Positions 6,184 through 24,256 of a stretch of DNA of 31,641 nucleotides are shown in pieces. This stretch comes from a virus. Below the pieces are notes generated by a model. That model worked only from the letters and a program-made list of their open reading frames with translations. It made no database searches and was not told the DNA's origin. The stretch is from IMG/VR virus record IMGVR_UViG_3300025168_000370, positions 1 through 31,641 of that record; one strand, given 5' to 3'. A program made the translations under genes and the position numbers. Position 1 is the stretch's first letter. Each line of letters starts with the position of its first letter.

Positions 6184-6596
6184 TAATCTTTTTTCTTTAA
6201 CATCTTTTGTAATTCAGCAGTTGACCCAACAAACAAAGCATTCGTAACATTTTTAGGACCAGTCTCTGGTACCTCCTTTAACTTTTTCATTTTTGTTTGT
6301 AAATCTACAAGTTTTTCTGTAACTTCGGCAACATTTTTTATTAAGTTTCCAGCAACTTCATATGCTCTTGGTTGTTCAGATTCTTGAGCAAGGTCTAAGA
6401 TACCTTCAATAGCATCTTGTCCTCTTTCGATTAAGTTGTAAAAATTTTCTCTTTGATATTTGTAATCTTTATCCATATCATCATCTGATGATTGTGGTTT
6501 TGGTCTAGGTATTACTGCTTGTTTTTTAGTTTCTTTTTTAACATCATCAACAACACCTAATGCCTTATCGATTATATTTTCTACATTGTCTGTCAT
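6183..6596 (-). CDS. 16: Terminase small subunit gp16
   Basis: This is the regulatory terminase subunit that recognises concatemeric DNA and stimulates gp17. It has 137 residues (T4: 164). The central region, about residues 45-110, is strongly helical and reads RENFYNLIERGQDAIEG, LDLAQESEQPRAYEVAGNLI and VTEKLVDLQTKMKKLK. This corresponds to the coiled-coil oligomerisation core of gp16 proteins. The N-terminus is acidic and lysine-rich and probably flexible. The gene is followed by gp17 with overlapping stop and start, and lies 12 bases after the gp15 stop. Identification rests on the helical core and the fixed 15-16-17 order. Confidence 0.92.
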   Translation of the reverse strand: MTDNVENIIDKALGVVDDVKKETKKQAVIPRPKPQSSDDDMDKDYKYQRENFYNLIERGQDAIEGILDLAQESEQPRAYEVAGNLIKNVAEVTEKLVDLQTKMKKLKEVPETGPKNVTNALFVGSTAELQKMLKKKD

Positions 6597-6608
6597 ATTT
6601 GTATCTCA

Positions 6609-7409
6609 TTATGTATCTTCACCACTTGCAGGGTCAAAAGTCTTTGCATCTTGAAAGAACGATACTGTTTCATTAAAACCAAAATCATCATCTGCTTCAG
6701 CACTTGTTGGATTTGGTGTTACTGTTGTTCTTTGAATTCTTGCAGGTGACTTATCTGGCATATCAGCATATTGGTCAACTTGTACTTGTTTAATAACTTT
6801 GCCAGAAGTAACTGGGCCATAAAGATAAAATTTAGCAGTAAATCCTAAAGTGTAAACAATTGCTCTTCTTTCTGAATAATCACCTCGGTAACTATCTTCA
6901 TAATTAATAGAATTTAAAATAATTGGAACATCTCTTTTTATTCCCATGTCTGCCATATCATTAATTGTTACTGTATAATCAGGTTGGAAATATGGAAGTA
7001 TTTGTTCAACCATTTGTAAAGCATCATCAGATTGTTTTGCCATAGCATACAATTCAAAATCTAAATTATATGGAACAGGCATATATTGAGAATCTAATTG
7101 TTTTGTTGTGCTTGATTTCTTTTTCTTAAATTGTTGTACACGATTTAATTTTCTTACTGGGTCATAGGCAATTGTACCAATTTCAAAACCAAGACGAGGT
7201 AAAGTAATTGCTACTTTAGAATCTAGATTTGCATCTTGGTCAAGTCTTACTAAAAATTTTTGTTTAGGGCCATACGCCAATGGCACCTTCATTTTCTGTA
7301 CAATATTTCCATTGTTATCTTTTCTAACAATGTTGATGTCGTTAAAGATTGTACCGAATGTAACAACCAGTCGTCTGATTGTTTCATGATAAAATTGTGT
7401 TCCTAACAT
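6609..7409 (-). CDS. 15: Tail completion / sheath terminator protein gp15
   Basis: gp15 forms the hexameric ring that caps the tail and joins it to the neck. Its 266 residues match T4 (272). The N-terminus MLGTQFYHETIRRLVVTFGT, followed by LAYGPKQKFLVRL and the PRLGFEIGTIAYDPVRKLNR block, is the recognisable family signature. YMPVPYNLDFELYAMAKQSD and VEQILPYFQPDYTVTIND follow in the central part. The last 40 residues are acidic and proline- or threonine-rich and likely disordered. The start codon overlaps the gp14 stop (TAATG), indicating coupled translation. Confidence 0.95.
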   Translation of the reverse strand: MLGTQFYHETIRRLVVTFGTIFNDINIVRKDNNGNIVQKMKVPLAYGPKQKFLVRLDQDANLDSKVAITLPRLGFEIGTIAYDPVRKLNRVQQFKKKKSSTTKQLDSQYMPVPYNLDFELYAMAKQSDDALQMVEQILPYFQPDYTVTINDMADMGIKRDVPIILNSINYEDSYRGDYSERRAIVYTLGFTAKFYLYGPVTSGKVIKQVQVDQYADMPDKSPARIQRTTVTPNPTSAEADDDFGFNETVSFFQDAKTFDPASGEDT

Positions 7410-8422
7410 TATGTTCTCCCAGCATCACCGAATGGATTAGATTCGCTGAAGTCTAATATATTTTCGTCCTCTGCTTCAAAAAACTCATTTTGAGCAGTAG
7501 TATCAGTTGACATGTCGCCTACTATATAGTCTTCTTGAATGATGTAATTTGCATCACCTGAATCAGCTGCATTCTCAAGAAGAATACTTTCACCAATTGA
7601 TGCTTCATCATCTTCGTGAACAACCACATCTTCGTCTTCCATTAATAACGTGTCTGTATTTGAACTGTCAGTAAAGAATTCAAGAGCAATACTTTCGTTG
7701 TAAGCAGTTGTTGCTTCAAGTGTAACTTGATGTTGTAAAGCGTCACCTGTAAGAGCATCTTCAATAGCGTCAATATCTGCAATACCTGTATCAATAACTT
7801 CACTTGAATATTCAAACTGTTTGCATCTTAGTTTGTAAACAGGATTATTATCTAATTGATGAAATGGTTCATCATGGTCTACAAAAGCAACTTCAAATAC
7901 TTTTTCTAAAACTGGGTGAAATATTAAGTCACCTTCTTTTGGTCGATTTGCATATGTACTAGTTGATGCAGTTTCGCCTCTTAAATATCCACTATCAAAA
8001 GAAGCATATAATGTATTAGTTGATGAAGAGACTAGTGTGCCAGATTCTAAAAGTATTGAACCTTCAGTTGTGGCTGTTGCAGTTTCTAAATCCATTTGAT
8101 GAGCAACATCATCGAATCTAGTTCTACTTACAACAAATGTAATTTCATTTCTATTTTCTAAACCAAATTGTTGAATCAATTCTTTTTCACCTTGATATCC
8201 ACCATCGGCATCTTCAACATACATTTCGATAGTTTGTGATTTATTAAATTGTGATAAAGAATCTTCACCAAAGATATTATCTCTTGCTGTTAGTGTTCTA
8301 TCAATATAGTTAACATCATGACCATGTATCTGAATTGCTTCTTTAACTAAACTTGCATATAGATTTTGCTCAGCAGTAGTTGCAGCTTTACCTGATGTTT
8401 TAAACGCACTATTGACAGCCAT
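7409..8422 (-). CDS. 14: Neck protein gp14, enlarged form
   Basis: gp14 and gp13 form the neck that joins the packed head to the tail. At 337 residues it is longer than T4 gp14 (256). The conserved N-terminal part reads AFKTSGKAATTAEQNLYASL, DRTLTARDNIFGEDSLSQF and FGLENRNEITFVVSRTRFDD. The C-terminus has the marine-phage ending ILDFSESNPFGD. The extra length is in low-complexity acidic segments: GSILLESGTLV near residue 121, and residues 255-305, which hold LLMEDEDVVVHEDDE and GESILLENAA. These resemble LLEDG-type modules in the virion proteins at 24263-29220. The ATG is preceded by AGGA, six bases after the gp13 stop. Confidence 0.93.
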   Translation of the reverse strand: MAVNSAFKTSGKAATTAEQNLYASLVKEAIQIHGHDVNYIDRTLTARDNIFGEDSLSQFNKSQTIEMYVEDADGGYQGEKELIQQFGLENRNEITFVVSRTRFDDVAHQMDLETATATTEGSILLESGTLVSSSTNTLYASFDSGYLRGETASTSTYANRPKEGDLIFHPVLEKVFEVAFVDHDEPFHQLDNNPVYKLRCKQFEYSSEVIDTGIADIDAIEDALTGDALQHQVTLEATTAYNESIALEFFTDSSNTDTLLMEDEDVVVHEDDEASIGESILLENAADSGDANYIIQEDYIVGDMSTDTTAQNEFFEAEDENILDFSESNPFGDAGRT

Positions 8423-8428
8423 TTATTT

Positions 8429-9241
8429 TTATCCTTTAATTATCATATCAGGGTATTGTAAGTTTTCAATATATGTTTCTAACTTTTCAATTTCTTCTTG
8501 TGCCTGACTGAATATTTGTTCACCATTCATAGTTACTCCACCCAGTAAAGCAACATTTTGAAACTTAGATAAGTTCATACCCCATTGTTTTTTAATTAAC
8601 GCTGAAGCATATCTTTTTAAATGCATGTTGTCATACAAATCTGTATAAACATCTGGGTCTAATTTTCTGTAACATTCAATGATAAGATAGTCATCTGTAT
8701 TAACATCACCAGACCAATCCATATCTAAATATAATCTTCCTTGATGTTCTGTAAATCTAATAGGTTTTTCGCCAACTAAAATATGTGAAAGATAATCAAG
8801 ATGTTGCATTGTCATTTCATAGTGAACAATACTTGTTGAGGAAAAATCATACAAATCATTTAATCTTAATTGATAACGAATATCAAACATATTGTTTGTA
8901 GCCGCATTATCGAATGAAAAAATGTTTAGTACAGAAACTATGCTCGATGGCATAGGAATAAAATTTTTCCCTTCTTCAAAACTTGATGTTATTGTACTAT
9001 CAACTCTATCGGTTGCAGTAGTGGTATCGTTGGTTAAAGCTCTTGTTTTATCTGCTTCTGTAATTTTATATTTAAGATACATTTTCTCAACACTATCATA
9101 ATAGTAGTGAGCAAAGTATTGTATCGCTTCGTCTATTCTATCGTCAACTTGGTCGTCACTAACATTAATGTCAATTACTCCAAAACCTAAGTTTCGTAAA
9201 CAATAATCTTTGAATGTTGTCTTTGAATTTGGTATTGCCAT
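8429..9241 (-). CDS. 13: Neck protein gp13
   Basis: This is the head-completion neck protein that binds the portal end after packaging. It has 270 residues (T4: 309). The opening MAIPNSKTTFKDYCLRNLGF, then VIDINVSDDQVDDRIDEAIQ and YFAHYYYDSVEKMYLKYKIT, is a family signature shared with marine T4-like phages. Other conserved blocks are FIPMPSSIVSVLNIFSF and SALIKKQWGMNLSKFQNVAL. The ATG at 9241 has AAGGA in front. Those bases, and the first 71 bases of the gene, also encode the end of the upstream epimerase. No exact late promoter lies ahead of it; a one-mismatch octamer at 9259-9266 is inside the epimerase gene and is not convincing. Confidence 0.95.
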   Translation of the reverse strand: MAIPNSKTTFKDYCLRNLGFGVIDINVSDDQVDDRIDEAIQYFAHYYYDSVEKMYLKYKITEADKTRALTNDTTTATDRVDSTITSSFEEGKNFIPMPSSIVSVLNIFSFDNAATNNMFDIRYQLRLNDLYDFSSTSIVHYEMTMQHLDYLSHILVGEKPIRFTEHQGRLYLDMDWSGDVNTDDYLIIECYRKLDPDVYTDLYDNMHLKRYASALIKKQWGMNLSKFQNVALLGGVTMNGEQIFSQAQEEIEKLETYIENLQYPDMIIKG

Positions 9242-10016
9242 GTATTTTTCCTTTTAAGTATTTATCTAAATTGCGTTTTGGTACCCATCCCAAATCCAAT
9301 ATATCTGTTATATTTGCCGTGTTATCTTGTCTTTCGCCTATAAAACCAGATTCTAAAGGTATATTATGTAAGTATTTATCAACTAGCTCATCGACCTTTA
9401 TGCCTTTACCACTTGCAATTTCATAATTATGTTGTGTCCAATCTGCGAAAAAGTCCTTACGATATATAAACAATTTAATTGCATCAACAATATCTAATAC
9501 ATGTATAAAGTCTCTTGTATGATTAGTTTTGTACGTTAAAGTGCCATCAATCATTTTTTGAGTTAACATTGTAGGTCTACATCCAGGCCCAAAGACATTA
9601 GTAAATCTTAATCCAATATGTTTACCTGTTGCCTTTGCCACAGATTCCATTGCCTTTTTTGAACCTGCATAAGGATTATTATACCATTCATGTACATTTG
9701 AAGATGAAGCATAAACACATGGAATTTCAAGTTTTCCACATAATTGAAACAAGTTAATAGACCAATCTACATTTGTTTCATACCATTTGTCTGGGTCTTC
9801 CATTGATTTACGAACATCTGCTAATGCCGCCAGATGAACTACTCTATCAAATTGTGATAAGTAATCTTCTTTTATATCTTTAAAATTAAGGGGTGCTGGA
9901 TTTCCCTCAAATGTTCTTAATAAATCCCACTCTGAAACTGAATGTTTATCTTTTTTTAATTCTCTAACTACATGTGAACCAATAAATCCACTTGAACCTG
10001 TAACCAATATTTTCAT
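9171..10016 (-). CDS. NAD-dependent sugar epimerase/dehydratase (extended SDR)
   Basis: This protein probably converts a nucleotide-activated sugar in the cytoplasm of the infected cell. It has 281 residues with a complete Rossmann N-terminus, MKILVTGSSGFIGSH (Gly7, Gly10, Gly13). The HLAALADV motif at 61-68, SSS at 104-106 and the catalytic YAGSK pair Tyr116/Lys120 follow. LRFTNVFGPG and a C-terminal substrate domain complete the extended-SDR pattern. The exact sugar cannot be read. ATG at 10016 is preferred over a TTG six bases upstream because GGAG lies seven bases before it. The last 23 or so residues are encoded within the start of gp13 in another frame, a 71-base overlap. It forms a cassette with two divergent glycosyltransferase genes, and all three are foreign to the T4 structural order. 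Confidence 0.88.
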   Translation of the reverse strand: MKILVTGSSGFIGSHVVRELKKDKHSVSEWDLLRTFEGNPAPLNFKDIKEDYLSQFDRVVHLAALADVRKSMEDPDKWYETNVDWSINLFQLCGKLEIPCVYASSSNVHEWYNNPYAGSKKAMESVAKATGKHIGLRFTNVFGPGCRPTMLTQKMIDGTLTYKTNHTRDFIHVLDIVDAIKLFIYRKDFFADWTQHNYEIASGKGIKVDELVDKYLHNIPLESGFIGERQDNTANITDILDLGWVPKRNLDKYLKGKIHGNTKFKDNIQRLLFTKLRFWSN

Positions 10017-10071
10017 TGACAATACTCCATATATATGATATTAATACTACTATAACTTATTTAGGTGATTA
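10017..10071. promoter_or_regulatory. Divergent promoter region of the sugar cassette
   Basis: This 55-base gap separates the start codons of the epimerase (minus) and the first glycosyltransferase (plus), so promoters for both directions should lie here. On the plus strand TATAACTT at 10051-10058 resembles a -10 or degenerate late element and is followed by AGGTGA as ribosome site. On the minus strand GGAG serves the epimerase. A 10-base palindrome CATATATATG occurs at 10028-10037. No exact late octamer was found, so this cassette may follow a different schedule from the structural genes. Confidence 0.4.
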
Positions 10072-10959
10072 ATGTCAAGGGCAATTTACAGTTTATATAT
10101 TGAAATACCAGACGAAGAACTTGATTTCTTCGATAAAGATATTATTAGAAAAGGTAAAACACCAACTAATATCCATACTAAACAACAATTTCAAAAACAT
10201 TATCAAAAAATTATAGAAAACAAAAAACGCTATGCAGAGGTTCTTGGTGTTGAGTTCTTTATGTATGAATATTCAACAGATTTCAAAGAGTATGCAAAAC
10301 ACTTTAAAGAGAATTATCCGTTTATCACAATGTATAACATTGTTAACAAATACAAATTAGCATTAATGGAAAGGCTTGTCAATAAGTACGATGAAGTTCT
10401 TTATCTAGACTTTGATGCTATACCTGTAACAAATGAAAACTTTTTTGATGTATGGGATTTATCTAAAGGTATTGCAATTTTACATAACAATGATAAGATA
10501 CGACCTACACATTATCATCTAGATGAAATTAAAGGTTCTATTCGTTCGCCATCAGCAAAATACTTTAACGCAATGGCAATGTTAGAAGAAAATGGTTTGT
10601 CACCACAATGCGATGTAGTTAATACAGGCATCATTGGTTGCAATAAAGAACATTGGAATAAACTTAATTACTTTTCAGATTTAGATAAGTCATTTGAATT
10701 GATGCACTATTTAAGAAGTGATGAATATAAAAAGGATTCTATGTATCCAATAAATATAACAAATACATTTGGATATGATAACGAAACAATTTTCTCATAT
10801 AAATTAAAAAAACAAAATGTGCCTGTTCAATGGTTAAATAACCAATGGCATTATTTTTATGATTATGAGATGCATATACCTAAAGAAACAAAGATAGTAC
10901 ACGCTATCAATAAGGAATTTGAATATGTCTGGCGATATGAAAAAAAGATTAATTTTTAG
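10072..10959 (+). CDS. GT-A type glycosyltransferase 1
   Basis: Probable nucleotide-sugar-dependent glycosyltransferase of 295 residues. It has the GT-A pattern of a hydrophobic strand ending in a DxD metal-sugar site, VLYLDFDAIP (Asp113, Asp115). NTGIIGCN at 184-191, DNE at 236-238 and a C-terminal KIVHAINKEF with His277 follow. No signal peptide or membrane segment is evident, so it should act in the cytoplasm. It shares this whole motif series with the next gene, pointing to an old duplication. The acceptor could be a virion protein, a cell-surface glycan or another phage molecule; the sequence does not decide. ATG at 10072 has AGGTGA in front. Its base composition is among the most AT-rich in the window. 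Confidence 0.8.
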   Translation: MSRAIYSLYIEIPDEELDFFDKDIIRKGKTPTNIHTKQQFQKHYQKIIENKKRYAEVLGVEFFMYEYSTDFKEYAKHFKENYPFITMYNIVNKYKLALMERLVNKYDEVLYLDFDAIPVTNENFFDVWDLSKGIAILHNNDKIRPTHYHLDEIKGSIRSPSAKYFNAMAMLEENGLSPQCDVVNTGIIGCNKEHWNKLNYFSDLDKSFELMHYLRSDEYKKDSMYPINITNTFGYDNETIFSYKLKKQNVPVQWLNNQWHYFYDYEMHIPKETKIVHAINKEFEYVWRYEKKINF

Positions 10960-11764
10960 TATGTACACAACATCTATTAATTTAGATGAAAGAAGTAATT
11001 CTGCAAGAATTGGTGGTGCTGGAAATATGTTTGAAAAACATTTTGAAAGACTTGTACAGGGTCACAAAGCATTAGCAGAAATGTGGGATGCTGATTATAT
11101 TTTAGATAGGCCTAGTCAAACCGATTCTGTTAAAGAGTTTGATAAACTTACAATGTGGAAACTTTTTAAATTAGAAGAGTACGTTGAACAATACGAACAA
11201 GTTCTATATCTTGATTTAGATGTTATTCCTAATCTAAAAAATATAAAAAAGAATATGTTTAACGAGTTTGATTTTACAAAAATTGTTTCGGGGTGTAATG
11301 ACACACATGATTTAGCATTATTTAAAAATGTTCATGAAATGAGAGATAAAGATAATTGGTATAAATCTCTTGACAAGTATCATTGGTCAGTCAAAACAAA
11401 AATGTTTCATCATATGTTACTATCACAATTAATTGAACCTAAGTTCTATCGTATGATTAATACTGGTATATGGGGTGGAAGTAAAACTGCTACTGATAAA
11501 TTAAAATTTAGTAAAAGATTTGATGAATGTAAAGAAGTCCTTGACGAAATCAAAGACATGGATAATCGATACTTCTACAATAACGAAGTTTTTATTTCTT
11601 ACATTTTGGAAAAATACAAACTAGAAGATAACTTTGATTTAGTACCAGACCACTGGCATCGTTTCTTTCTTAATGACAGTAGTTATGATTCATGCAAAAC
11701 AGCATGTCTTATACATGTTATGAACAAAGACTTTGAGGGTGTCTTTAAAGCTATAGATTCTTAA
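10937..11764 (+). CDS. GT-A type glycosyltransferase 2
   Basis: Second glycosyltransferase of the cassette, 275 residues from the preferred ATG at 10937, which overlaps the end of the first by 23 bases. A TTG at 10919 and ATGs at 10925 and 10961 are alternatives, and no strong ribosome site decides. Motifs parallel the neighbour: VLYLDLDVIP with Asp93 and Asp95, NTGIWGG at 175-181, NNE at 215-217, and the terminal CLIHVMNKDF with His260. The N-terminus MKKRLIFSMYTTSINLDERS is short and cytoplasmic-looking. The two enzymes may act in succession on a sugar supplied by the epimerase, which is inference from context. The gene ends convergently with, and overlaps by 14 bases, the next minus-strand gene. 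Confidence 0.78.
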   Translation: MKKRLIFSMYTTSINLDERSNSARIGGAGNMFEKHFERLVQGHKALAEMWDADYILDRPSQTDSVKEFDKLTMWKLFKLEEYVEQYEQVLYLDLDVIPNLKNIKKNMFNEFDFTKIVSGCNDTHDLALFKNVHEMRDKDNWYKSLDKYHWSVKTKMFHHMLLSQLIEPKFYRMINTGIWGGSKTATDKLKFSKRFDECKEVLDEIKDMDNRYFYNNEVFISYILEKYKLEDNFDLVPDHWHRFFLNDSSYDSCKTACLIHVMNKDFEGVFKAIDS

Positions 11765-12417: not shown

Positions 12418-13377
12418 TTAAGAACGAAGTGCCTTAAAGGTAAAAGTAGAAATAGTTGCAGCAGAACCGTTAGGAAATTTCTGTGAACGATAATCATCAC
12501 CGCCAACAAATCTATTTGTTTCTGTACCTGAACCATCAAGTTTTGTATCAGTCATTGCCGTTCCTTTTGCAACACCTGAACCATTTATATTGTAATCAAT
12601 ATTGTGGTCTGCAGCTACAGCATCATCAACTGCTAGTTTTCTAGTGTAGTTTTGTAGTAACGATTCGATGTCTGCTTCTGCATATTGATTTAAGTTTTTA
12701 TTTGTATTATCGATAAACAACAATGTTCTCGCAGGTGTGTTATCAACACCATCTCTTTTAAAAAGAAAGAAGCTGTTTATTATTTCATTGTGTGTTTGAG
12801 CAGTACCTGCACCATCAATAGAACCCGCTGCATATTCAGAGACATCAGCTCTTGTATCAATAAAAACAGCAGTAGAAGAAATTAGTGTATGATTACTCAA
12901 TGAATTTGCATTGTGAATTGTGAACATTCCTCCATAATCACCTGCTGTTCCTTCACTGGCAGCAGTCATAAGAACTAATGCTGGTTTAATAAAAGTATCA
13001 ACAAAGTCTGCTTCTGTCATAGACCGAATCGCTCCAGCAGAGTTATCCCAATAAACAGGAAATGCCACACTATTAGTATCTCCAGCCGCACTTACAGAAG
13101 CCTTTGTTTGTGATATCTTATCAAAAGCAGTTGTGGCTGTTTGTAAAGCACCAGAGCCAGGGTGTGAAGATACTTGAACTACGGTTGCTGAAGAGATAAA
13201 TCTTGTATCATTCATTACTGGTGAAATATTACCACTACCAGAAACCTGTGAACATGTCACAGATGGGTTTGAGGCATATTGGAATATCGCTTGTTTTACA
13301 TACTCTAATACTTCACTTGCAGAAGTCTCAATAAGACTGTTACTGCCATCGTAGTATAAGGGGGCTCTTACTGTCAT
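12418..13377 (-). CDS. Putative virion structural / fibre-associated protein
   Basis: A 319-residue protein opening MTVRAPLYYDGSNSLIETSA, a start that resembles proteins in the adsorption region of marine T4-like phages. The rest is rich in Ser, Thr, Ala, Asp and Asn with short beta strands, for example VAFPVYWDNSAGAIRSM, FVDTFIKPALVLMTAASEGT and a terminal STFTFKALRS. No enzyme motif is seen. Gene order suggests a fibre or baseplate-peripheral protein in the region of T4 genes 11, 12 and wac, but I cannot align it to any of them. It has its own sigma-70-type promoter overlapping a late-like element (13404-13432), with an AGGAG site. It lies 28 bases upstream of the 212-residue gene. Confidence 0.75.
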   Translation of the reverse strand: MTVRAPLYYDGSNSLIETSASEVLEYVKQAIFQYASNPSVTCSQVSGSGNISPVMNDTRFISSATVVQVSSHPGSGALQTATTAFDKISQTKASVSAAGDTNSVAFPVYWDNSAGAIRSMTEADFVDTFIKPALVLMTAASEGTAGDYGGMFTIHNANSLSNHTLISSTAVFIDTRADVSEYAAGSIDGAGTAQTHNEIINSFFLFKRDGVDNTPARTLLFIDNTNKNLNQYAEADIESLLQNYTRKLAVDDAVAADHNIDYNINGSGVAKGTAMTDTKLDGSGTETNRFVGGDDYRSQKFPNGSAATISTFTFKALRS

Positions 13378-13435: not shown

Positions 13436-15073
13436 TTAAATTGCGGCGTGTCCGTTAACTGTTTTTAGTGTTGTGCCACCAGAGTTCTTAATTAAAAGAA
13501 TACTATCTGGTGTTGCGTGGAACTTACCTGTTGAACCAACAATCTTTGCTTTCTCTACGGCAGTTTCTGAATTACCTGCTCTGAATGATATTTTAGTTGC
13601 GTTAGATGATGCACTAAAGTCTCCTTCAGCCATCGCTACGATAGCTGCGGCCACTGTAATAGCATCGGTACCTGCACCCTCGTCAGGTGCTTGGAAGAAG
13701 ATTGCACCAAGTTCATCGTTTGCGGCAACATCAGTATCACCTGATTGTAAAGTAATAGTTGCAGACGAACCGTCAGCAGCTGCTAAATCTTTGAGAATTA
13801 ACTTACCAGTTGATGTCATAGTTAATAATCCACCATCTGTACCTGCGGCAGCAGATTTACCTGTTGCAAATATCATAGAAGCAGCGTTATTATCAGCTGC
13901 AAAGTTACCTTCAGAGACAACCTTAATTGTACCTGCGGCTAATAGAGCATCAGTACCTGCACCTTCAGCAGGTGCCTTAAAGTCAATTTGTCCTAACACA
14001 TCATCTGCGGCAATATCGTTATCACCTGCGGCAAGTGTTACTAATGGTGTAGAGTTATCTGCTGTTGCTGGAACAGAAATCGTAAGACCTGAATCAGCGA
14101 CATGTGTTATTGTTACGTCTGAATTAGCACCTAACTTAATTACAGAAGCATCTGAACCTAAGATTAAGTCATCGCCTACTGTGAAGTCACCATTTGTTGT
14201 TAAACCTGTATCTGCTACGTGAGTAATATTAATATCTGAATCAGCACCAAATTTTATTATTGCTGCATCAGATAATAGTAAAAGGTCATCACCTATAACT
14301 GCATCTAAAGCAACTGATAATCCACCATCAGTTTGTAGTGAACCATCGGTTGTACTTGTTGCAGCAGTTGTATCGTCTGTTTTTAGTATTCCACTAAATG
14401 TACCTGTTGTAGCTGTTAATCCAGCAGTAACTGCTAATGCACCTGCAGAACTTAAAGTCATTTTTGTTGCAGCTGCTTCGGAAGCACCAACCATAAAGTC
14501 AATGGCAGTAGCATTAGCATCAGCCGCAAAGTCACCCTCAGAACGAGCTTGAATAGCTGCGGCAACTAATACTGCATCTGTTCCTGTTCCTTCATCTGGT
14601 GCCTGAAAGGCAATTTTACCTAGAACGTCATTGGCAGCGATATCAGTTTCACCTGATTGTAAGGTTAAAACAAATGGATTATCGTCACCTGTTGCTTTTG
14701 ATTTTAAGAATAAACCATCATCAGGGTCGTGTGTTACTATAACGTCTTGGTCATTACCAAATTGAATGGTAGCACCATCGGCTAAAAATAAATCTGAAAA
14801 TTCTTTTGTTGCAGAACCCAATGTTGTACCGTCAGCGCTTGTTGGTAATATTGATGTTCCGAATGTACCTGTATTAATAACAGGTGAAGTTAATGTTTTG
14901 TTTGTAAGGGTTTGTGTTGCTCCAAGAGATACACTTGTAAATCCGCCGGCTGTGCTACCATCATGAACTCTCAACGTGTCTAGCGTTGTATCATAAGTAA
15001 TTTCACCAATTGCGCCCGTAAATGAATTATTCTGTGAAGTTGTACCCCTTCTATGTTGTAGTACTGTTGGCAT
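13436..15073 (-). CDS. Repeat-built tail fibre protein with Mtd-like N-terminus
   Basis: A 545-residue fibre-type protein. The N-terminal block VLQHRRGTTSQNNSFTGAIG, then EITYDTTLDTLRVHDGSTAGG (first 20 positions typical), resembles the attachment domain seen in major-tropism-determinant-like and other phage fibre proteins. A linker LGATQTLTNKTLTSPVI at 50-66 follows. The shaft is modular: three copies of a roughly 60-residue repeat (residues 137-197, 345-403, 440-500) with core AANDxLGxIxFQAPDEG, and three copies of a 21-residue unit (101-121, 271-291, 310-330) with core FGxDSDxxITHVADxGL. The C-terminus ends KTVNGHAAI. It is rich in Ala, Asp and Gly, and its GC content is clearly higher than that of its neighbours. 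An exact late promoter lies upstream, with AGGAG before the ATG. Confidence 0.85.
   Translation of the reverse strand: MPTVLQHRRGTTSQNNSFTGAIGEITYDTTLDTLRVHDGSTAGGFTSVSLGATQTLTNKTLTSPVINTGTFGTSILPTSADGTTLGSATKEFSDLFLADGATIQFGNDQDVIVTHDPDDGLFLKSKATGDDNPFVLTLQSGETDIAANDVLGKIAFQAPDEGTGTDAVLVAAAIQARSEGDFAADANATAIDFMVGASEAAATKMTLSSAGALAVTAGLTATTGTFSGILKTDDTTAATSTTDGSLQTDGGLSVALDAVIGDDLLLLSDAAIIKFGADSDINITHVADTGLTTNGDFTVGDDLILGSDASVIKLGANSDVTITHVADSGLTISVPATADNSTPLVTLAAGDNDIAADDVLGQIDFKAPAEGAGTDALLAAGTIKVVSEGNFAADNNAASMIFATGKSAAAGTDGGLLTMTSTGKLILKDLAAADGSSATITLQSGDTDVAANDELGAIFFQAPDEGAGTDAITVAAAIVAMAEGDFSASSNATKISFRAGNSETAVEKAKIVGSTGKFHATPDSILLIKNSGGTTLKTVNGHAAI
13574..13756 (-). repeat. Fibre repeat A, copy 3
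   Basis: Encodes residues 440-500 of the fibre, with TLQSGDTDVAANDELGAIFF, QAPDEGAGTDAITVAAAI and EGDFSASSNATKISFRAG. It is nearest in sequence to copy 1 at 14483-14665. Confidence 0.8.
13865..14041 (-). repeat. Fibre repeat A, copy 2
   Basis: Encodes residues 345-403, with VTLAAGDNDIAADDVLGQID, FKAPAEGAGTDALLAAGTIK and EGNFAADNNAASMIFATG. It is the most diverged of the three copies. Confidence 0.75.
14483..14665 (-). repeat. Fibre repeat A, copy 1
   Basis: Encodes residues 137-197, with TLQSGETDIAANDVLGKIAF, QAPDEGTGTDAVLVAAAI and EGDFAADANATAIDFMVG. Repeats like this can exchange by recombination and vary fibre length. Confidence 0.8.
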
Positions 15074-16018: not shown

Positions 16019-16241
16019 TGTTTTTTACCATTTGTTGTAGTAAGTGTTTAATCTCATGCATTTCGCATTTAAGATTATTTATCTGTCTAGTGGCGTCTCT
16101 TAATTCATCATTTCTTTTTTGTGCATTTTGTGAAGCAATTCGTGCTTTTAAATATGCAGACTTACTTGTGTTTAAAATAGCGCCAGATTCTAAATCCCTT
16201 ACTAATTCAGAATGTCCTTCTACTTTAACAAGTGTTTTCAT
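16008..16241 (-). CDS. Small coiled-coil virion-region protein
   Basis: A 77-residue protein. The N-terminal MKTLVKVEGHSELVRDLESG and AILNTSKSAYLKAR resemble small proteins found next to baseplate and fibre genes in marine T4-like phages. The C-terminal half, about residues 33-72, is a predicted coiled coil (NDELRDATRQINNLKCEMHE, IKHLLQQMVKN) with heptad-spaced Leu, Ile and Met. It could be a fibre-assembly adaptor or a baseplate accessory protein. The ATG overlaps the stop of the 2160-residue gene (TAATG) and its end overlaps the GTG start of the next gene. This makes a compact run of coupled genes. Confidence 0.75.
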   Translation of the reverse strand: MKTLVKVEGHSELVRDLESGAILNTSKSAYLKARIASQNAQKRNDELRDATRQINNLKCEMHEIKHLLQQMVKNSGN

Positions 16242-19200
16242 TATGTTGCCAATGCAAGTAATCTCAAGTCTCTTATTCTTGGAGGTTGAGCAGCATTAGT
16301 TCCTTGTCCTACTATTTTAATTGCAAACTGAATAAATTCAGGTAGTGGCGTTCCGATACCATCATCAGTAACACCTGCTGTGTAAATGTATTCTTGGAAA
16401 TCGTTATCATCAAGAGATGACCCTATTTCAACATCAGTTGTACCAGTTGTGTTAAAGAATGTATAACCTAATTCATCAAAATCAGAAGCGTCATCAGTTC
16501 TTAAAACTTTAAACATTGATTTAATTTCAGCACTTTGTTGTTTGTGTGCTGAAAAGATTAACTTAATAGCAGTTGCTGGATTTTCCAATGCAACTTTCTT
16601 TGTAATATAAATGAATGCGTTTTGGTCACCACTAGGTTGTGTGGAATCTTTGTAATCAGTTGTAGGGAAAACATCAGATGAACTATCAATGTTATTAATT
16701 CTATTTGCGACAGCAACAAATGATGCACGACCTAAATCAATCACAGGTGAAATACTTTGATTTTGACTTGTTAGTTTTAATGGAATGAATAATGATTTTG
16801 CACCAGCAAGTTCATTTGTTTCATTTATATCAGATGCAATTACACTTGTTATTGAGTTGGTAAAGTTTTCATTGAAAGGAATAGAAATAGCATTACCTAG
16901 TGTTGTTGTTGAGAATGATGTCTCTGCACCACTTGGTGATGTACCTGTAGTGTTTCTCAATGTAGATACAATTTTTGTGTTACCTAATTCTAAAGAAGAA
17001 ATAAGTGTTTTACCAGTTTCGTATCGATAGTTTTCTGAAGCATATATACCTGTTCCACCAACTTCAGCAGTTGTTGAACCACCTGAAACACTTGGAGCAT
17101 TTGTAAGAGTAACAGTATAAGAATCTATTCCTATGTTTGCTATTGCAGTATGAATCTTATTAATTTCTACAAGTGAAGTACCTAAGATTTGATAAAGTTC
17201 AACTGTTGCGTTTGCGTCATGTATTGCAGCTGTTGAACCACTAGTACCTCTTGTGAGTGAGGATACTGTACCTGAACTATTTGAACCTGTAATAATTTCG
17301 TTTCCAATTTTAAGAGTTATTGCTCCAGCTGGGAAGTTTGTATTAGAAGTTAAAACTAATGAAGTTCCAGCCGCAGTTATACCTGCACTTAATGTTGTAC
17401 TAATACCCGAACTAACGCCTGTAATTCTTACATTGTTTGCAGTTGAATACATACCATGGTCGATATGTTTTACTCTTAGTACAGTTGAACTATCTGTCAT
17501 TGTTAAAGGATTAGCTGTTAATCTTTTTCCATACACAGTTGAACCTAATTCGTTTGTTACTGCATCACCAATAATATCGTTTTGTAAAGTTAAGTTACCT
17601 GCGGCAGTTGTATCAAATACTGCTTTGTTTAAAGTAAATTTTAAATCTTCTGAATCAGATGGTGACCAAGTAGTATTATTTTGTGATTTAAATAATACAC
17701 CAAGATGTGGTTGTTTTGATACTACTCTTAATCCACCAATATCTGTTTCGCCCATTCTTGAAATCCAAACTGTCGGTAAAGTTGTATGAGTTCTAACAAC
17801 GATACAATATTCTGTTCCACCCTTAACATAAACAGGTGAATCAAATGTAAATGTTGTTGCTGTTGAAGCATCGGTTGATACATTAAGTTCTGAACTTTTT
17901 AAAACTTTTCTACCAAAGGGAAGAACTTTAGGACCAGGATATCCGTTAATAACATTTCTCAATTCAATCCAAATTGGACTATCTATATCTATTGTTTCAA
18001 AGTAAAGGTCTACTGAAGTTAAAAAACAACCATTAGGGTCTTCAATTAAAAATGTTTGTGCAAGAGGGTCACTTGGACAAAATTGTTTACTACCACTTAA
18101 TGTACCTTGAGAAACTCCTGTTCTACTTTCAATACGCTCTAATGGTTGAGTTTGTCTTTGGTTATTTACATATTTATCTCTATGTGCTTTTGCTCTGTCT
18201 CTTGTATCATGATTCCTAGCAATATTATTAATAACTGTAGAAGAAGTATCAAGAACGGAAGTAGTTTGAACTACATCTGTTTGAGCGATAAAGGCGTTTC
18301 TTGTTGCAATAATTGTTTCTTGCTCTGTTTCTAATATTCCTTTTGCAGAATATATTACTGAACCAGAAGTTATTGGTAAAGGGGTTGTTTCATTTGTTGC
18401 ACTTGCTGTAATTTTAAATTCTATTTCACCAGTTTTAAATTTAGGAACATTTTCTTGTCCTTTAAATTTATAATCAGGAATTGCAAAAGTACCATTAACA
18501 TCACCAAGAGCATCTGTAACAAGTTGAGTACCTGCGGCTGGTGTAACAGCACCTTCGGTAAATGTAGATGATTCTGCTGTAACATAAGCGCCTACATTTG
18601 TGCCATCAAAGAATACATAAACTTTTGTATTAGGATAAAAACCTTCACCTGTAAATGTAACAGTTCTAGGTCTTACCCACGGTATAATTGCTCTTGCAAT
18701 AATTCTTGTACTCTGTGTTTCTTCATCAATTTGTTCTACAATATTTGTTGCAATACCTGAACGACTTAAATCTGAACGAGTTGTTTGAATTGCTCTTGTA
18801 ATTATACTGTTACCTTCTCTACCTGCTCGGGTAGTTTCTGTTTTTGTTGAAACAACACCAGACCATTGAGTTTCCCAAGCATTCCAAATTGTACCAATTC
18901 TATTTTCATTTGCTGCCAAAACTGAATCATAGTTACCATCAACATTAATAATTAAATCAGGTGCAGTTTCAGTTTCAAACCATTCGTCACCTTCAGGTGA
19001 TAGTTTAATCATTCCTACCCAGTTTGCAGTATAAACAGGTAGTATTCTTTCAACTCTTGTTGCATATGAATTTTCAGTTTCAACTGTTTCTGTGTATGGA
19101 AGTGTTAATAGTTCACCAGTCTTTTGGTATCCTAACCCAGCTCTTTCTGTATCAGTTGAAACAGTTTCCACAAGGCCTGAGGCTCTCATAACACACTTTG

Positions 19201-22200
19201 GTCGTAACTCTTTAAACTGTTGGTCTATTGAATTTTTATAATCTCTATTTTTAACATCACCAACTCTATGACCTGCAAAGTTATCTACTACAAAGCCAGA
19301 TTTAAATCTGTTCAATCCATTTGCATCTGTAATTTCAAATGATTCAGCATCTCTTTCAAGTAATGATAAGTTTGTATAATACTCAAGGTTTTGAATTCTT
19401 CTCTGCAATTTACCAATATCTTTCATAGTAAATCTTTGATTTCTTTCTCTTGAAATTTGAATATCAGTAGGTCTAAATGTATAAGCAGGTATAAATGCAG
19501 TTAGAAGTTTCATTGCTCCGTCAATTTGTTTAGGTTCTGTTGGAACTTCAGCAGACGGACCTTCAACTACTTTAAACTCACCATCTTGACCAAGAAAAAC
19601 ACTAATAATTTTATTCAAATAGAATTCAAAATCAATTGTTCCTAGTGTACCAGGTTTTGGTGTATCAACTGTTGAAGAACCTGCACCGTCAAATTGTCTA
19701 TGGAAGAAGTCAAAAGATTTGCCAGTTATTGTATCGATAGCAGATTCCGTATCACTTGCACCAGTAACATTTTCACATGTTGGTCTGAAGTCTAAACAAT
19801 CTGTTAGTTCAAACTCACCAGTTGGTTCTGGTTCATCTGGGTCAACTCTTGTAGCAGTATAAGTTGGAATATCATCGTATTGCATTCTTTTAGCTGCATC
19901 TTGATAAGAATCTACACTAAAGAAAGAACCTGAAGAATGAGAAAAGAAATCAAATACTACTAATAATCTTCCTCTTGGTTTTGAAGAACCTGGTTTTAAT
20001 TCTATTCTTGATATGTCATAATAGTTATCTCTTTGACCTGTGTCTAAAACATAATGAGATGTAATAATTCTTGACCCTGCAGCTATTGATGATACAGTTG
20101 CAGTTGCAGTTGAAGAATCGCCTGTGATTGTTTCGCCAGCAGAAAAATCAATAGCACCATCACCACTTTGTAAATAATATGATAATGGTGATGTACTACT
20201 AACTACAATACCTACTGCGCCAGAAGTTCCACCAGTAATTTTTTCGCCTCTTGTAAATGTACCAGAAGCACTTGTTAATGTTAAAGTTGGAAGGGTCGCA
20301 TCAGCACTAGTATCTTCAGAATCTAAAACTACTCCTAAATTAAATGCATCAGCTCTGCCTAAAGAAATTGCTTCGTCAGTTGCTTTTGTTCCAAATGCAC
20401 CACCAACTGCTCCAGCTACTTTTACTTGTTTTGATAATTTTGTATTTTTAATTCTTTGTGTTACACTAGTTTTTAATATAGTTGCAGTTAAAAGAACTTT
20501 TGCAGAATCGCCAAGAGCAGAATTATCTGTGATTGTAATTGTTGATGTACCTGCGCCTGAGAGGTTTCCGTCAATAGAAACAATAGCACCTTGTGCGGCA
20601 GTACCATCACCTGCACTTAAAACACTTAATGTATAATCTTTTTCTGTGTGTGATAGAAATGTTTCATTTGCACCTGCTGTAAATGAAATAACACCACTTG
20701 AGTTTGTTGTGCCAATAAACTGTCTTCTTACTGTTATTGAAGTATCAGATGCACCATCATTATCAGTTGTTAAAAGTGTTTTAATAGTTTTCTTAGAAAG
20801 TCTGTATAAGGCAACATTCTTTTCAGAATTTACAAGTTTTGCATCTTGTTTTGTTTCTAACGCTAATGTTGAAGTGTTATCTGTTTCAGAAACAAAGTTT
20901 GCATTTTCATTAGTTCCATTCGCATCTGATTGATTAGCAATAAGAGAACCTACTACTGTACCACTTAAATCAATATCAGCAGTAAAGTCTTGACCTGAAT
21001 CACTATCATTTTGAAATACTGAACGAGTTTCGGAAAGTGTGTGTGTAACAACATCGGTAAGAGTTATATCAGCATTAGCTGCAGTTTCTACAACTTGGTC
21101 TGTCTCTGCACTATCAGAAGCAATAATTTTTTCGCCTGAAAGGAAAGTACCAGAAACATTTGTTAATACAACTGTTTGACCAGATGTTAAACTTCCAAAC
21201 ACAAAACCTGTTGCACCTGTAGTATTACCAGTAATTCTTACACCACCATTTGCATGATTAGATATTAAAGTTGCTGACGGTATACCCGATAAACTTAAAT
21301 AAGTAAATGGTCTAATATCAAAAAGAAATAATTTGTATATTGAATCATCATTTCCAGCAGTACCAGAATCGTATTCTATTGTTCTTGCTCTGGCAAGACC
21401 AATTTGTCTACCTGACGCAGTTCCTTTAGTTACAGTAATATCATCATGTAATTGAATTGTTTCGTAAGCAGTTTGTTCACCACTAATTGCAGTAACTTTA
21501 GGTTGATTGTGTAATTTTTTGATTTTAATAAAGTTACCTAACTCAGCATTTACTGTGCCAGCATTAACAGTATCGAACTCTCTTGCCTTTTGAATATCTT
21601 TAAATGTAATCGCAGTTTTTTCAATTTCGTAACCACGAACATATGCTTTACCTGGTGATATTGCTAAATTGAAAAAGTTTTCTGCAGCTGTATTACCATC
21701 GGTAGTTGTAGTACCAACAGTATAAACACCTCTGAACTCTGTGCCTTTGTGTCTATTTGAAATCTGTTCTCTTGCATCTATTTGAAAAGGTCTTACAGTA
21801 TAGTCACCTGATTCATCAAATGTTCTTCTTGCAAGTGAATCGCCAATTACTGAATAATCTGTAGGTCTAGCATCTGCACTCGGCCCACCATCAACTACTC
21901 TAACAATCTCAACAAACTTATCATCACTTGTAGAATCAATAGGTAATGATGTAAGAACTAAATCAATTTTAAGTCTATGAGCACCTTTGGCTGCAAAGTT
22001 TGATGAACCTGTTGCATTATCTGTAAGTGAAGCATCATCTTCTGGTGCCACTAAAGTTTCTGTTATTGTGAATCCTACTCTGGCACTTGCATATTGTGAA
22101 GTATCATCTAATACTAAAGTTTGTTCTGACATCTGAACAAAAGTTCCACGCACATAATAAACACCATTACCTGCTGTAACAGCAGTACCTGTTTGATGTG

Positions 22201-22723
22201 CATTTAAATTATGAGTAGTAGCAGAATTAGCGTTAATCGCATAACTTGTTGTATGAGTAATAGCTGTATCTGCAAAAATATTTTCATTGTCTGCGAATAT
22301 ATTAGTTTCTAAATCTGAACCTGTTGAAATATATTGAATGTATAATAATGGTTGCGATGTAGTTGTTGCAGCTTTAACACCAATAACTTTTGCTCTAACA
22401 CCAGTTGTTGCTCCAACTATTGTAACTGGTGATGTTGCACTATAATATTGATTAACATCTATTGATTCAGCTGCAAAAGTAGAAGCTAATAAAATAGAAT
22501 CATAAGTTTGATTTGTTGAAATTCCACCGGGTATTACAACTGAACCCTCTTGAAAAATATGTGAACCAAATCTTTCGACTTGATTTTGAAGTATTGATTG
22601 TAGTTGTGTTAATTCTCTCGCTTGAACAGCGAACCCTGGTCGAAACAATATACGATGAAAATTCTTATCTTCTTTATAATCATCATAATATGGTGCGACA
22701 TTTAAATCTGTTTTTTGTGCCAT
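16241..22723 (-). CDS. Giant baseplate/tail structural protein
   Basis: This 2160-residue gene is the largest in the window, about a fifth of it. The N-terminus MAQKTDLNVAPYYDDYKEDK and FRPGFAVQARELTQLQSILQ, then NQVERFGSHIF (residues 27-57), is characteristic of large structural proteins in marine T4-like phages, placed near baseplate genes. Mid-protein modules include EKITGGTSGAVGIVVSS and ITGNTTGATGFVFGSLTSG. A conserved block around residue 1548 reads CPSDPLAQTFLIEDPNG, followed by LTSVDLYFETIDIDSPIWIE. Further on is IGNEIITGSNSSGTVSSLTR. No enzyme motif is seen. Position between gp8 and the fibres suggests it covers the role of T4 gp9/gp10-type peripheral baseplate components or a fibre anchor, which is inference. 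Its ATG lies one base after the gp8 stop, with only a weak GAG ribosome site. Confidence 0.85.
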   Translation of the reverse strand: MAQKTDLNVAPYYDDYKEDKNFHRILFRPGFAVQARELTQLQSILQNQVERFGSHIFQEGSVVIPGGISTNQTYDSILLASTFAAESIDVNQYYSATSPVTIVGATTGVRAKVIGVKAATTTSQPLLYIQYISTGSDLETNIFADNENIFADTAITHTTSYAINANSATTHNLNAHQTGTAVTAGNGVYYVRGTFVQMSEQTLVLDDTSQYASARVGFTITETLVAPEDDASLTDNATGSSNFAAKGAHRLKIDLVLTSLPIDSTSDDKFVEIVRVVDGGPSADARPTDYSVIGDSLARRTFDESGDYTVRPFQIDAREQISNRHKGTEFRGVYTVGTTTTDGNTAAENFFNLAISPGKAYVRGYEIEKTAITFKDIQKAREFDTVNAGTVNAELGNFIKIKKLHNQPKVTAISGEQTAYETIQLHDDITVTKGTASGRQIGLARARTIEYDSGTAGNDDSIYKLFLFDIRPFTYLSLSGIPSATLISNHANGGVRITGNTTGATGFVFGSLTSGQTVVLTNVSGTFLSGEKIIASDSAETDQVVETAANADITLTDVVTHTLSETRSVFQNDSDSGQDFTADIDLSGTVVGSLIANQSDANGTNENANFVSETDNTSTLALETKQDAKLVNSEKNVALYRLSKKTIKTLLTTDNDGASDTSITVRRQFIGTTNSSGVISFTAGANETFLSHTEKDYTLSVLSAGDGTAAQGAIVSIDGNLSGAGTSTITITDNSALGDSAKVLLTATILKTSVTQRIKNTKLSKQVKVAGAVGGAFGTKATDEAISLGRADAFNLGVVLDSEDTSADATLPTLTLTSASGTFTRGEKITGGTSGAVGIVVSSTSPLSYYLQSGDGAIDFSAGETITGDSSTATATVSSIAAGSRIITSHYVLDTGQRDNYYDISRIELKPGSSKPRGRLLVVFDFFSHSSGSFFSVDSYQDAAKRMQYDDIPTYTATRVDPDEPEPTGEFELTDCLDFRPTCENVTGASDTESAIDTITGKSFDFFHRQFDGAGSSTVDTPKPGTLGTIDFEFYLNKIISVFLGQDGEFKVVEGPSAEVPTEPKQIDGAMKLLTAFIPAYTFRPTDIQISRERNQRFTMKDIGKLQRRIQNLEYYTNLSLLERDAESFEITDANGLNRFKSGFVVDNFAGHRVGDVKNRDYKNSIDQQFKELRPKCVMRASGLVETVSTDTERAGLGYQKTGELLTLPYTETVETENSYATRVERILPVYTANWVGMIKLSPEGDEWFETETAPDLIINVDGNYDSVLAANENRIGTIWNAWETQWSGVVSTKTETTRAGREGNSIITRAIQTTRSDLSRSGIATNIVEQIDEETQSTRIIARAIIPWVRPRTVTFTGEGFYPNTKVYVFFDGTNVGAYVTAESSTFTEGAVTPAAGTQLVTDALGDVNGTFAIPDYKFKGQENVPKFKTGEIEFKITASATNETTPLPITSGSVIYSAKGILETEQETIIATRNAFIAQTDVVQTTSVLDTSSTVINNIARNHDTRDRAKAHRDKYVNNQRQTQPLERIESRTGVSQGTLSGSKQFCPSDPLAQTFLIEDPNGCFLTSVDLYFETIDIDSPIWIELRNVINGYPGPKVLPFGRKVLKSSELNVSTDASTATTFTFDSPVYVKGGTEYCIVVRTHTTLPTVWISRMGETDIGGLRVVSKQPHLGVLFKSQNNTTWSPSDSEDLKFTLNKAVFDTTAAGNLTLQNDIIGDAVTNELGSTVYGKRLTANPLTMTDSSTVLRVKHIDHGMYSTANNVRITGVSSGISTTLSAGITAAGTSLVLTSNTNFPAGAITLKIGNEIITGSNSSGTVSSLTRGTSGSTAAIHDANATVELYQILGTSLVEINKIHTAIANIGIDSYTVTLTNAPSVSGGSTTAEVGGTGIYASENYRYETGKTLISSLELGNTKIVSTLRNTTGTSPSGAETSFSTTTLGNAISIPFNENFTNSITSVIASDINETNELAGAKSLFIPLKLTSQNQSISPVIDLGRASFVAVANRINNIDSSSDVFPTTDYKDSTQPSGDQNAFIYITKKVALENPATAIKLIFSAHKQQSAEIKSMFKVLRTDDASDFDELGYTFFNTTGTTDVEIGSSLDDNDFQEYIYTAGVTDDGIGTPLPEFIQFAIKIVGQGTNAAQPPRIRDLRLLALAT

Positions 22724-24236: not shown

Positions 24237-24244
24237 TATTTATA
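24237..24244 (-). promoter_or_regulatory. T4-type late promoter, gp8-proximal copy
   Basis: Exact TATAAATA on the minus strand, 19 bases before the gp8 ATG. It is the nearer of two copies 12 bases apart. Confidence 0.7.
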
Positions 24245-24248
24245 CAAA

Positions 24249-24256
24249 TATTTATA
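24249..24256 (-). promoter_or_regulatory. T4-type late promoter, gp8-distal copy
   Basis: Second exact TATAAATA on the minus strand, 12 bases upstream of the first and about one helical turn away. The two sites share the same face of the DNA and may compete or reinforce each other. Confidence 0.7.

Follow-up and report, generated by a model that had tools for sequence, protein, structure and literature searches.

Why would a T4-like phage carry genes for converting and transferring sugars inside its late structural cluster, and what would receive the sugar? The question is raised by a 31.6-kb fragment of such a phage (IMG/VR record IMGVR_UViG_3300025168_000370, 31,641 nucleotides, the whole of which is called the window below), in which a predicted nucleotide-sugar epimerase/dehydratase (EPI) and two predicted glycosyltransferases (GT1 and GT2) lie between the neck gene gp13 and the fibre genes. 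Marine T4-like phages of the pelagimyophage group carry glycosyltransferase cargo in their variable host-recognition cluster (HRC); the cassette is this cargo in compact form, and we put at roughly 0.5 the probability that the cassette is read early in infection and modifies a glycan of the host envelope. Decoration of the virion remains the main rival. The cassette is composed as follows:

9171–10016, minus strand: EPI, extended-SDR nucleotide-sugar epimerase/dehydratase, 281 aa; ATG start, with a TTG at 10022
10017–10071: gap between EPI and GT1, 55 bp
10072–10959, plus strand: GT1, GT-A glycosyltransferase with the metal motif DFD; of the two transferases, the conserved one
10925–11764, plus strand: GT2, second GT-A glycosyltransferase with a DLD motif, hypervariable; ATG start, with a TTG at 10919

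An earlier sequence-only reading had described three such genes, divergent from a 55-base gap and with their catalytic motifs intact. The three open reading frames are found where it placed them and on the same strands, and since they are conserved in dozens of contigs, chance is ruled out; the gap is exactly 55 bp, and the motifs are present in all three proteins (GSSGFIG and YAGSK in EPI, DFD in GT1, DLD in GT2).

Promoters of the cassette

Four control signals bear on the time at which these genes would be read:

10016–10044, plus strand: sigma70-type promoter of GT1–GT2, TTGACA (10016–10021), 17 nt, TATTAA; the −35 box abuts the EPI start codon
10049–10078, minus strand: sigma70-type promoter of EPI, TTGACA, 18 nt, TATAGT, 11/12 match; the −35 box overlaps the GT1 start codon
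13404–13432, minus strand: sigma70-type promoter of o319–o212, two genes on the fibre side of the cassette, TTGACA, 17 nt, TATTAT, 11/12 match
9259–9266, minus strand: late promoter motif of gp13, GATAAATA, at −25 relative to the gp13 ATG, within the frame of EPI

Although it stands among late genes, the cassette looks early-type in its control, because sigma70-type promoters (at least 11/12) precede none of the 49 structural-region genes of the isolates Mosig and Melnitz, against 18 of 110 genes elsewhere (p = 0.0008), whereas the late motif NATAAATA is commoner in the structural regions (24/49 versus 18/110, p = 3e-5); in this yardstick the genomes were read in 20-kb pieces, only genes with an upstream gap were counted, the counts are small, and the region borders were set by hand from the annotation after the bins had been seen. 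In the Melnitz paper, sigma70 promoters are taken to be early and TATAAAT to be late (PMC9004378). Two looser signals were dropped. Exact TTGACA-N-TATAAT sites taken alone tracked early genes poorly in Mosig, HTVC008M, and Melnitz, some of them lying inside coding regions; a promoter search restricted to gene-upstream gaps did track early genes. With one mismatch allowed, TATAAATA was no commoner across the window than in shuffles (96 versus 99 expected), and therefore only exact NATAAATA upstream of genes was used as the late motif.

The 55-bp gap itself carries a conserved pattern. An exact TTGACA is found on both strands in all 15 distinct EPI–GT1 gaps, beside the EPI start codon on the plus strand and over the GT1 start codon on the minus strand, the rest of the gap having diverged, and each is followed after 16–18 nt by a −10-like hexamer, for totals of 10–12 of 12 per strand; shuffled gaps score 11 in just 0.3–0.6%. 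The GT1 start (MSR) codes part of the minus-strand TTGACA, and because that box is partly coding the plus-strand box is the cleaner evidence. Only two sites in the whole window reach at least 11/12, the promoters of EPI and of o319, and in contig L145/L215, which has no EPI, a 12/12 promoter still precedes GT1. The o319 promoter is present in 13/14 relatives of one set and in 7/7 clade members of another; outside the core clade it was found in 0/36 sequences, eight of which have NATAAATA instead. The structural neighbors gp13 and the fibre gene fib545 have late motifs, not sigma70-type promoters, and at −25 of gp13, within the EPI frame, NATAAATA is found in 15/15 sequences.

Predicted enzymes

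EPI is clearly recognizable from its sequence as an extended-SDR nucleotide-sugar enzyme, with both 4,6-dehydratases and 4-epimerases among its relatives (dTDP-glucose 4,6-dehydratase and UDP-glucose 4-epimerases in the PDB). It matches Pfam Epimerase at 1.9e-27 (96.7 bits against a cut-off of 20.9) and phrog_540 at 2.3e-45; its GSSGFIG and YAGSK motifs correspond to GxxGxxG and YxxxK, and the Rossmann and YxxxK motifs are kept in relatives.

The transferases are more remote from known families. Both match Glyco_transf_8 (PF01501) below its curated cut-off of 24.3 bits (GT1 7e-4, 19.7 bits; GT2 4e-4, 20.6 bits) and are for that reason termed GT8-like only; to one another they are distant homologues (8.5e-11), and a PDB sequence search with their profiles gave no match. 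The structure-based search bears out the proposal of two GT-A enzymes: the best Foldseek matches of the AlphaFold models (pLDDT 81.6 for GT1, 82.9 for GT2) are solved GT-A enzymes with E of about 1e-6, including, at the level of fold, LARGE1, LgtC, xylosyltransferases, and the PBCV-1 capsid glycosyltransferase. In alignments the Asp pair of the DxD motif is invariant across relatives (D113/D115 in GT1, D97/D99 in GT2). LgtC-type bacterial lipooligosaccharide (LOS) galactosyltransferases of family GT8 share the GT-A fold, the DxD motif, and a soluble single-domain size; they differ in that identity is only ~11% and the Pfam GT8 score of GT1 and GT2 stays under the cut-off.

A nucleotide-sugar enzyme and two transferases with early-type promoters would also suit glycosylation of the phage DNA, as in T4 (glucosyl-hydroxymethylcytosine) or RB69 (arabinosyl-hydroxymethylcytosine). 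The DNA glucosylation enzymes of T4, however, have the GT-B fold. We consider this use very unlikely, because the cassette transferases are GT-A and the dCMP hydroxymethylase family (PF00303) has no match in Mosig, HTVC008M, or Melnitz, Mosig being a carrier of GT1 and EPI and the window a fragment. A review of cyanomyoviruses finds no evidence for modified bases (PMC2984593), which also counts against it.

Variation of GT2

GT2 is the fastest-changing gene of the locus. Contigs L019 and L020 have identical gp13 (100%) and 95% identity in o212, but only 52% in GT2, whereas the GT2 of L019 is 97% identical to that of L026. Across GT2 the DNA identity drops from about 90% or more to 60–76% and recovers in o212; in those comparisons that show the GT2 dip, the 5′ end of EPI has a shorter one (72–74%). 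GT2 alleles are swapped between near-identical phages, and divergence amid such similar flanks is as expected of a determinant of specificity. A joint swap of EPI and GT2 was considered and rejected, since they vary independently (window versus L020: EPI 77%, GT2 37%; L020 versus L026: EPI 87%, GT2 53%). GT1 and GT2 are separated by about 1.1 kb in four contigs. In L022 the space (6408–7514) holds a radical SAM/SPASM gene, the spacing being equal in L023 and L024 and similar in L027.

Proposed early change of the host surface

A host-surface role is favored by the early-type promoters, the LOS-transferase-like folds, and the swapping of GT2, and published work on GT8 genes of the HRC arrives at this view too (PMC7029224). 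The host RNA polymerase with its housekeeping sigma factor would read GT1–GT2 and EPI divergently from the 55-bp region, and this transcription would be independent of the late machinery with which the phage transcribes gp13 and the fibre genes. EPI would supply or convert a nucleotide sugar, GT1 would place a first sugar on a conserved acceptor, and GT2, in whichever allele the phage had acquired, would add a variable outer sugar. The most likely acceptor would be the outer core or a short surface glycan of the host envelope, modified from the cytoplasmic side early in infection, with the result that binding would be poorer for rival phages, or for the phage's own progeny on debris. Both virion fibre glycosylation and a change of host surface glycans had been offered by the sequence-only reading; on the contrast of sigma70-type promoters with late motifs the second fits better and the first is not favored.

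Several observations weigh against early action on the host surface. The promoter class is assigned from sequence, and the GT1 promoter of the window is the weakest of its set (10/12). Promoter type may not exclude virion parts, because o319, a possible virion protein, has a sigma70-type promoter in this clade. In Mosig a CATAAATA late motif precedes o319, EPI, and o212, and TATAAATA motifs stand at the beginning of the sugar island; in other phages, therefore, these enzymes may work late in infection. Finally, no membrane or lipid-carrier gene was recognized in the cassette.

A fuller history can be offered only tentatively: an ancestral fibre-region module (o319, o212, GT1, GT2, EPI), late-read in relatives such as Mosig, may have been put under three sigma70-type promoters in one clade and so have become a switch that alters host-surface sugars early and whose GT2 specificity can be exchanged. 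If read early, the cassette would give a testable answer for the role of glycosyltransferases in the abundant SAR11-type myophages, namely that the host surface is altered and the virion is not decorated; the 55-bp control region and the swapped GT2 alleles are simple handles on expression time and glycan type. For fragments of uncultured phages, the contrast with the promoters of structural genes is also a cheap means of telling infection-phase cargo and virion genes apart.

Neighboring genes and the virion as acceptor

The cassette is flanked by gp13 on one side and by o212, o319, and a fibre gene on the other:

7409–8422: gp14
8429–9241, minus strand: gp13 (neck, head–tail adaptor), fixed neighbor; phrog_211, 7.3e-44
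9171–9241, minus strand: out-of-frame overlap of EPI and gp13, 71 bp, in which the 5′ end of gp13 carries the final ~23 EPI codons
11751–12389, minus strand: o212, found with GT1 in 40/40 loci having enough flank
12418–13377, minus strand: o319, Ser/Thr/Gly-rich, possible virion component, operon partner of o212
13436–15073: Mtd_N-type fibre gene
16241–22723: vrlC

The minus-strand order of the window is gp6, gp7-like, gp8, vrlC, small and fibre genes, gp13, gp14, gp15, gp16, gp17, gp18, gp19. The interval had been equated with that between gp12/wac and gp13 in T4; gp13 and fibre-type neighbors are indeed there, but neither gp12 nor wac was recognized. The genes are tightly packed: the reading frames of GT1 and GT2 overlap, GT2 and o212 overlap tail to tail by 14 bp, and EPI overlaps gp13 by 32–71 bp in 18/18 sequences examined. 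Because of this constant overlap, and because the EPI of Mosig lacks the tail that overlaps gp13 in the window, the EPI tail looks overprinted on the gp13 start.

The arrangement gives some credit to the view that the two transferases act on a fibre or neck protein, using sugar from EPI, with o319 as the best candidate acceptor and o212 as a helper. Among GT1 loci outside the clade that has the cassette beside gp13, 40 have 7.5 kb or more of sequence downstream; o212 is near GT1 in all 40 and convergent with it in 39, and EPI is present in 38. The order vrlC, o319, o212, then GT2 and GT1 on the opposite strand, is kept where vrlC is only 25–35% identical. Among 50,697 phage records GT1, o212, and o319 were each found in Mosig alone, which thus holds all three and has o319, EPI, and o212 head to tail behind its late motif. 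The PBCV-1 capsid glycosyltransferase among the best fold matches would suit a virion acceptor, but it is a general fold match (TM about 0.4–0.6), and the sigma70-type promoters of the cassette are unlike the signals of fib545 and gp13. Nor does o319 need a glycosyltransferase, because ~24 o319 loci with at least 4 kb downstream have none detectable; the link between the two is one-sided. We therefore regard virion decoration as possible but doubtful.

The o319 family comprises 529 viral contigs, adjoining vrlC or fibre genes. In place of a glycosyltransferase, some of its loci hold a carbamoyltransferase, an Asp/Arg hydroxylase, or a radical SAM protein, and in L230, L235, L236, and L255 o212 runs directly into gp13; both facts weakened o319 as an obligate acceptor. 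No match to o212 was found in Pfam, PHROG, or the PDB, and no significant family match to o319, for which a PDB sequence search with its profile was also empty. The two are thus uncharacterized families with Mosig as the sole isolate carrying them. Modifying enzymes that follow o212 in relatives include radical SAM/SPASM, Asp/Arg hydroxylase, and carbamoyltransferase genes (L241 11429–12217; L267 10527–11216; L226 11532–12854).

Conservation and origin

The order gp13–EPI–GT1, on the same strands, recurs in about 37 further IMG/VR contigs (GT1 identity 57–100%; viral contig scans, counted by hand from contig names). A tree of gp13 (61 distinct sequences) puts the rows that bear the cassette into a single group (23 rows, support 98/96), for which one change is needed; L145, a long branch with the transferases and without EPI, branches first within it. 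No cassette adjoins gp13 in gp13 relatives outside this clade, by contig scans and the same tree. GT1 relatives total 329 contigs; outside the clade they sit, along with o212 and EPI, in the vrlC/fibre region. The linkage of the cassette to gp13 thus appears recent and that to the fibre region old, because the cassette at gp13 is confined to one clade and outside relatives stay in the vrlC/fibre region. The outcome that would have refuted the sequence-only reading, a scattering of the genes away from any fibres, is not what relatives show, since EPI and o212 stay near GT1 in the vrlC/fibre region. That an epimerase and two transferases work together as a unit has good support in the conserved linkage and the paired divergent promoters.

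Could the genes be passive cargo, retained by recombination in a hypervariable region and tied to no glycan of infection? The slot does hold 2-oxoglutarate (2OG) oxygenases, a carbamoyltransferase, and radical SAM genes in other phages. Reading frames, catalytic residues, spacing, and promoters are nevertheless kept across dozens of contigs, with GT1 down to ~60% identity, which argues for selection on the cassette and makes passive carriage most improbable. A recent host origin of GT1 was also considered and dropped: a scan of bacterial genomes gave five contigs, four of which also carry o212 and o319 (some also EPI or vrlC) and look like phage contigs.

Comparison with known systems

Glycosyltransferases between VrlC and gp14 are already known in the pelagimyophage group; new here are a compact cassette of single origin, divergent sigma70-type promoters within a late cluster, the apparent overprinting of the EPI tail on gp13, and the GT2 allele swaps. 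The HRC account (PMC7029224) describes a variable VrlC–gp14 region with tail-fibre genes and GT8-type glycosyltransferases, and the latter were read there, in 2020, as modifying the host O-chain. The window agrees in having the cassette between vrlC and gp14, an Mtd_N fibre gene, and GT1 and GT2, and radical SAM genes occur in some relatives. It differs in size, the reported HRCs averaging 44.6 kb against ~7 kb from vrlC to gp13 with one fixed cassette, and the passages of the account that were consulted make no mention of paired sigma70-type promoters or of an EPI/gp13 overlap. No Pfam match to flippase GtrA or to GtrB, as in a Gtr serotype-conversion operon, was found among the cassette proteins or scanned neighbors.

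By terminase the nearest isolates are Melnitz (70% identity), HTVC008M (69%), and Mosig (66%), with Methylophilales and Pelagibacter as hosts. The sugar island of the Pelagibacter phage Mosig EXVC030M is a close counterpart, with homologues of GT1 (48%), EPI (38%), o212 (28%), and o319 (39%), and it also lies between vrlC and the fibre genes with its transferases on the opposite strand. Unlike the cassette, it is a ~10-kb plus-strand block with a carbamoyltransferase, radical SAM, aminotransferase, and other genes; its EPI is flanked by o319 and o212 and is a long way from gp13, and its motifs are late-type, not sigma70-type. The larger islands of Mosig and L158 contain a DegT-type aminotransferase, radical SAM, carbamoyltransferase, and methyltransferase, a content consistent with the making of a modified sugar.

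Comparison of the interval upstream of gp13 among phages, which the sequence-only reading had proposed, shows the cassette kept in one clade and other content elsewhere: in Melnitz the fibre genes continue directly into gp13, and nothing but small or structural genes stands there in the cyanophages S-SM2, P-SSM2, and P-TIM40. The Pelagibacter phage HTVC008M resembles the window in having a block opposite to the late-gene strand immediately upstream of gp13, but it carries 2OG-Fe(II) oxygenases and a ferrochelatase where the window has sugar genes. This slot (L053 11403–14682) holds six opposite-strand genes, four of them 2OG oxygenase/phytanoyl-CoA dioxygenase-like, one ferrochelatase, and one hypothetical. 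Elsewhere in the window, the minus strand upstream of gp8 has two exact TATAAATA motifs 12 bp apart (24237–24256).

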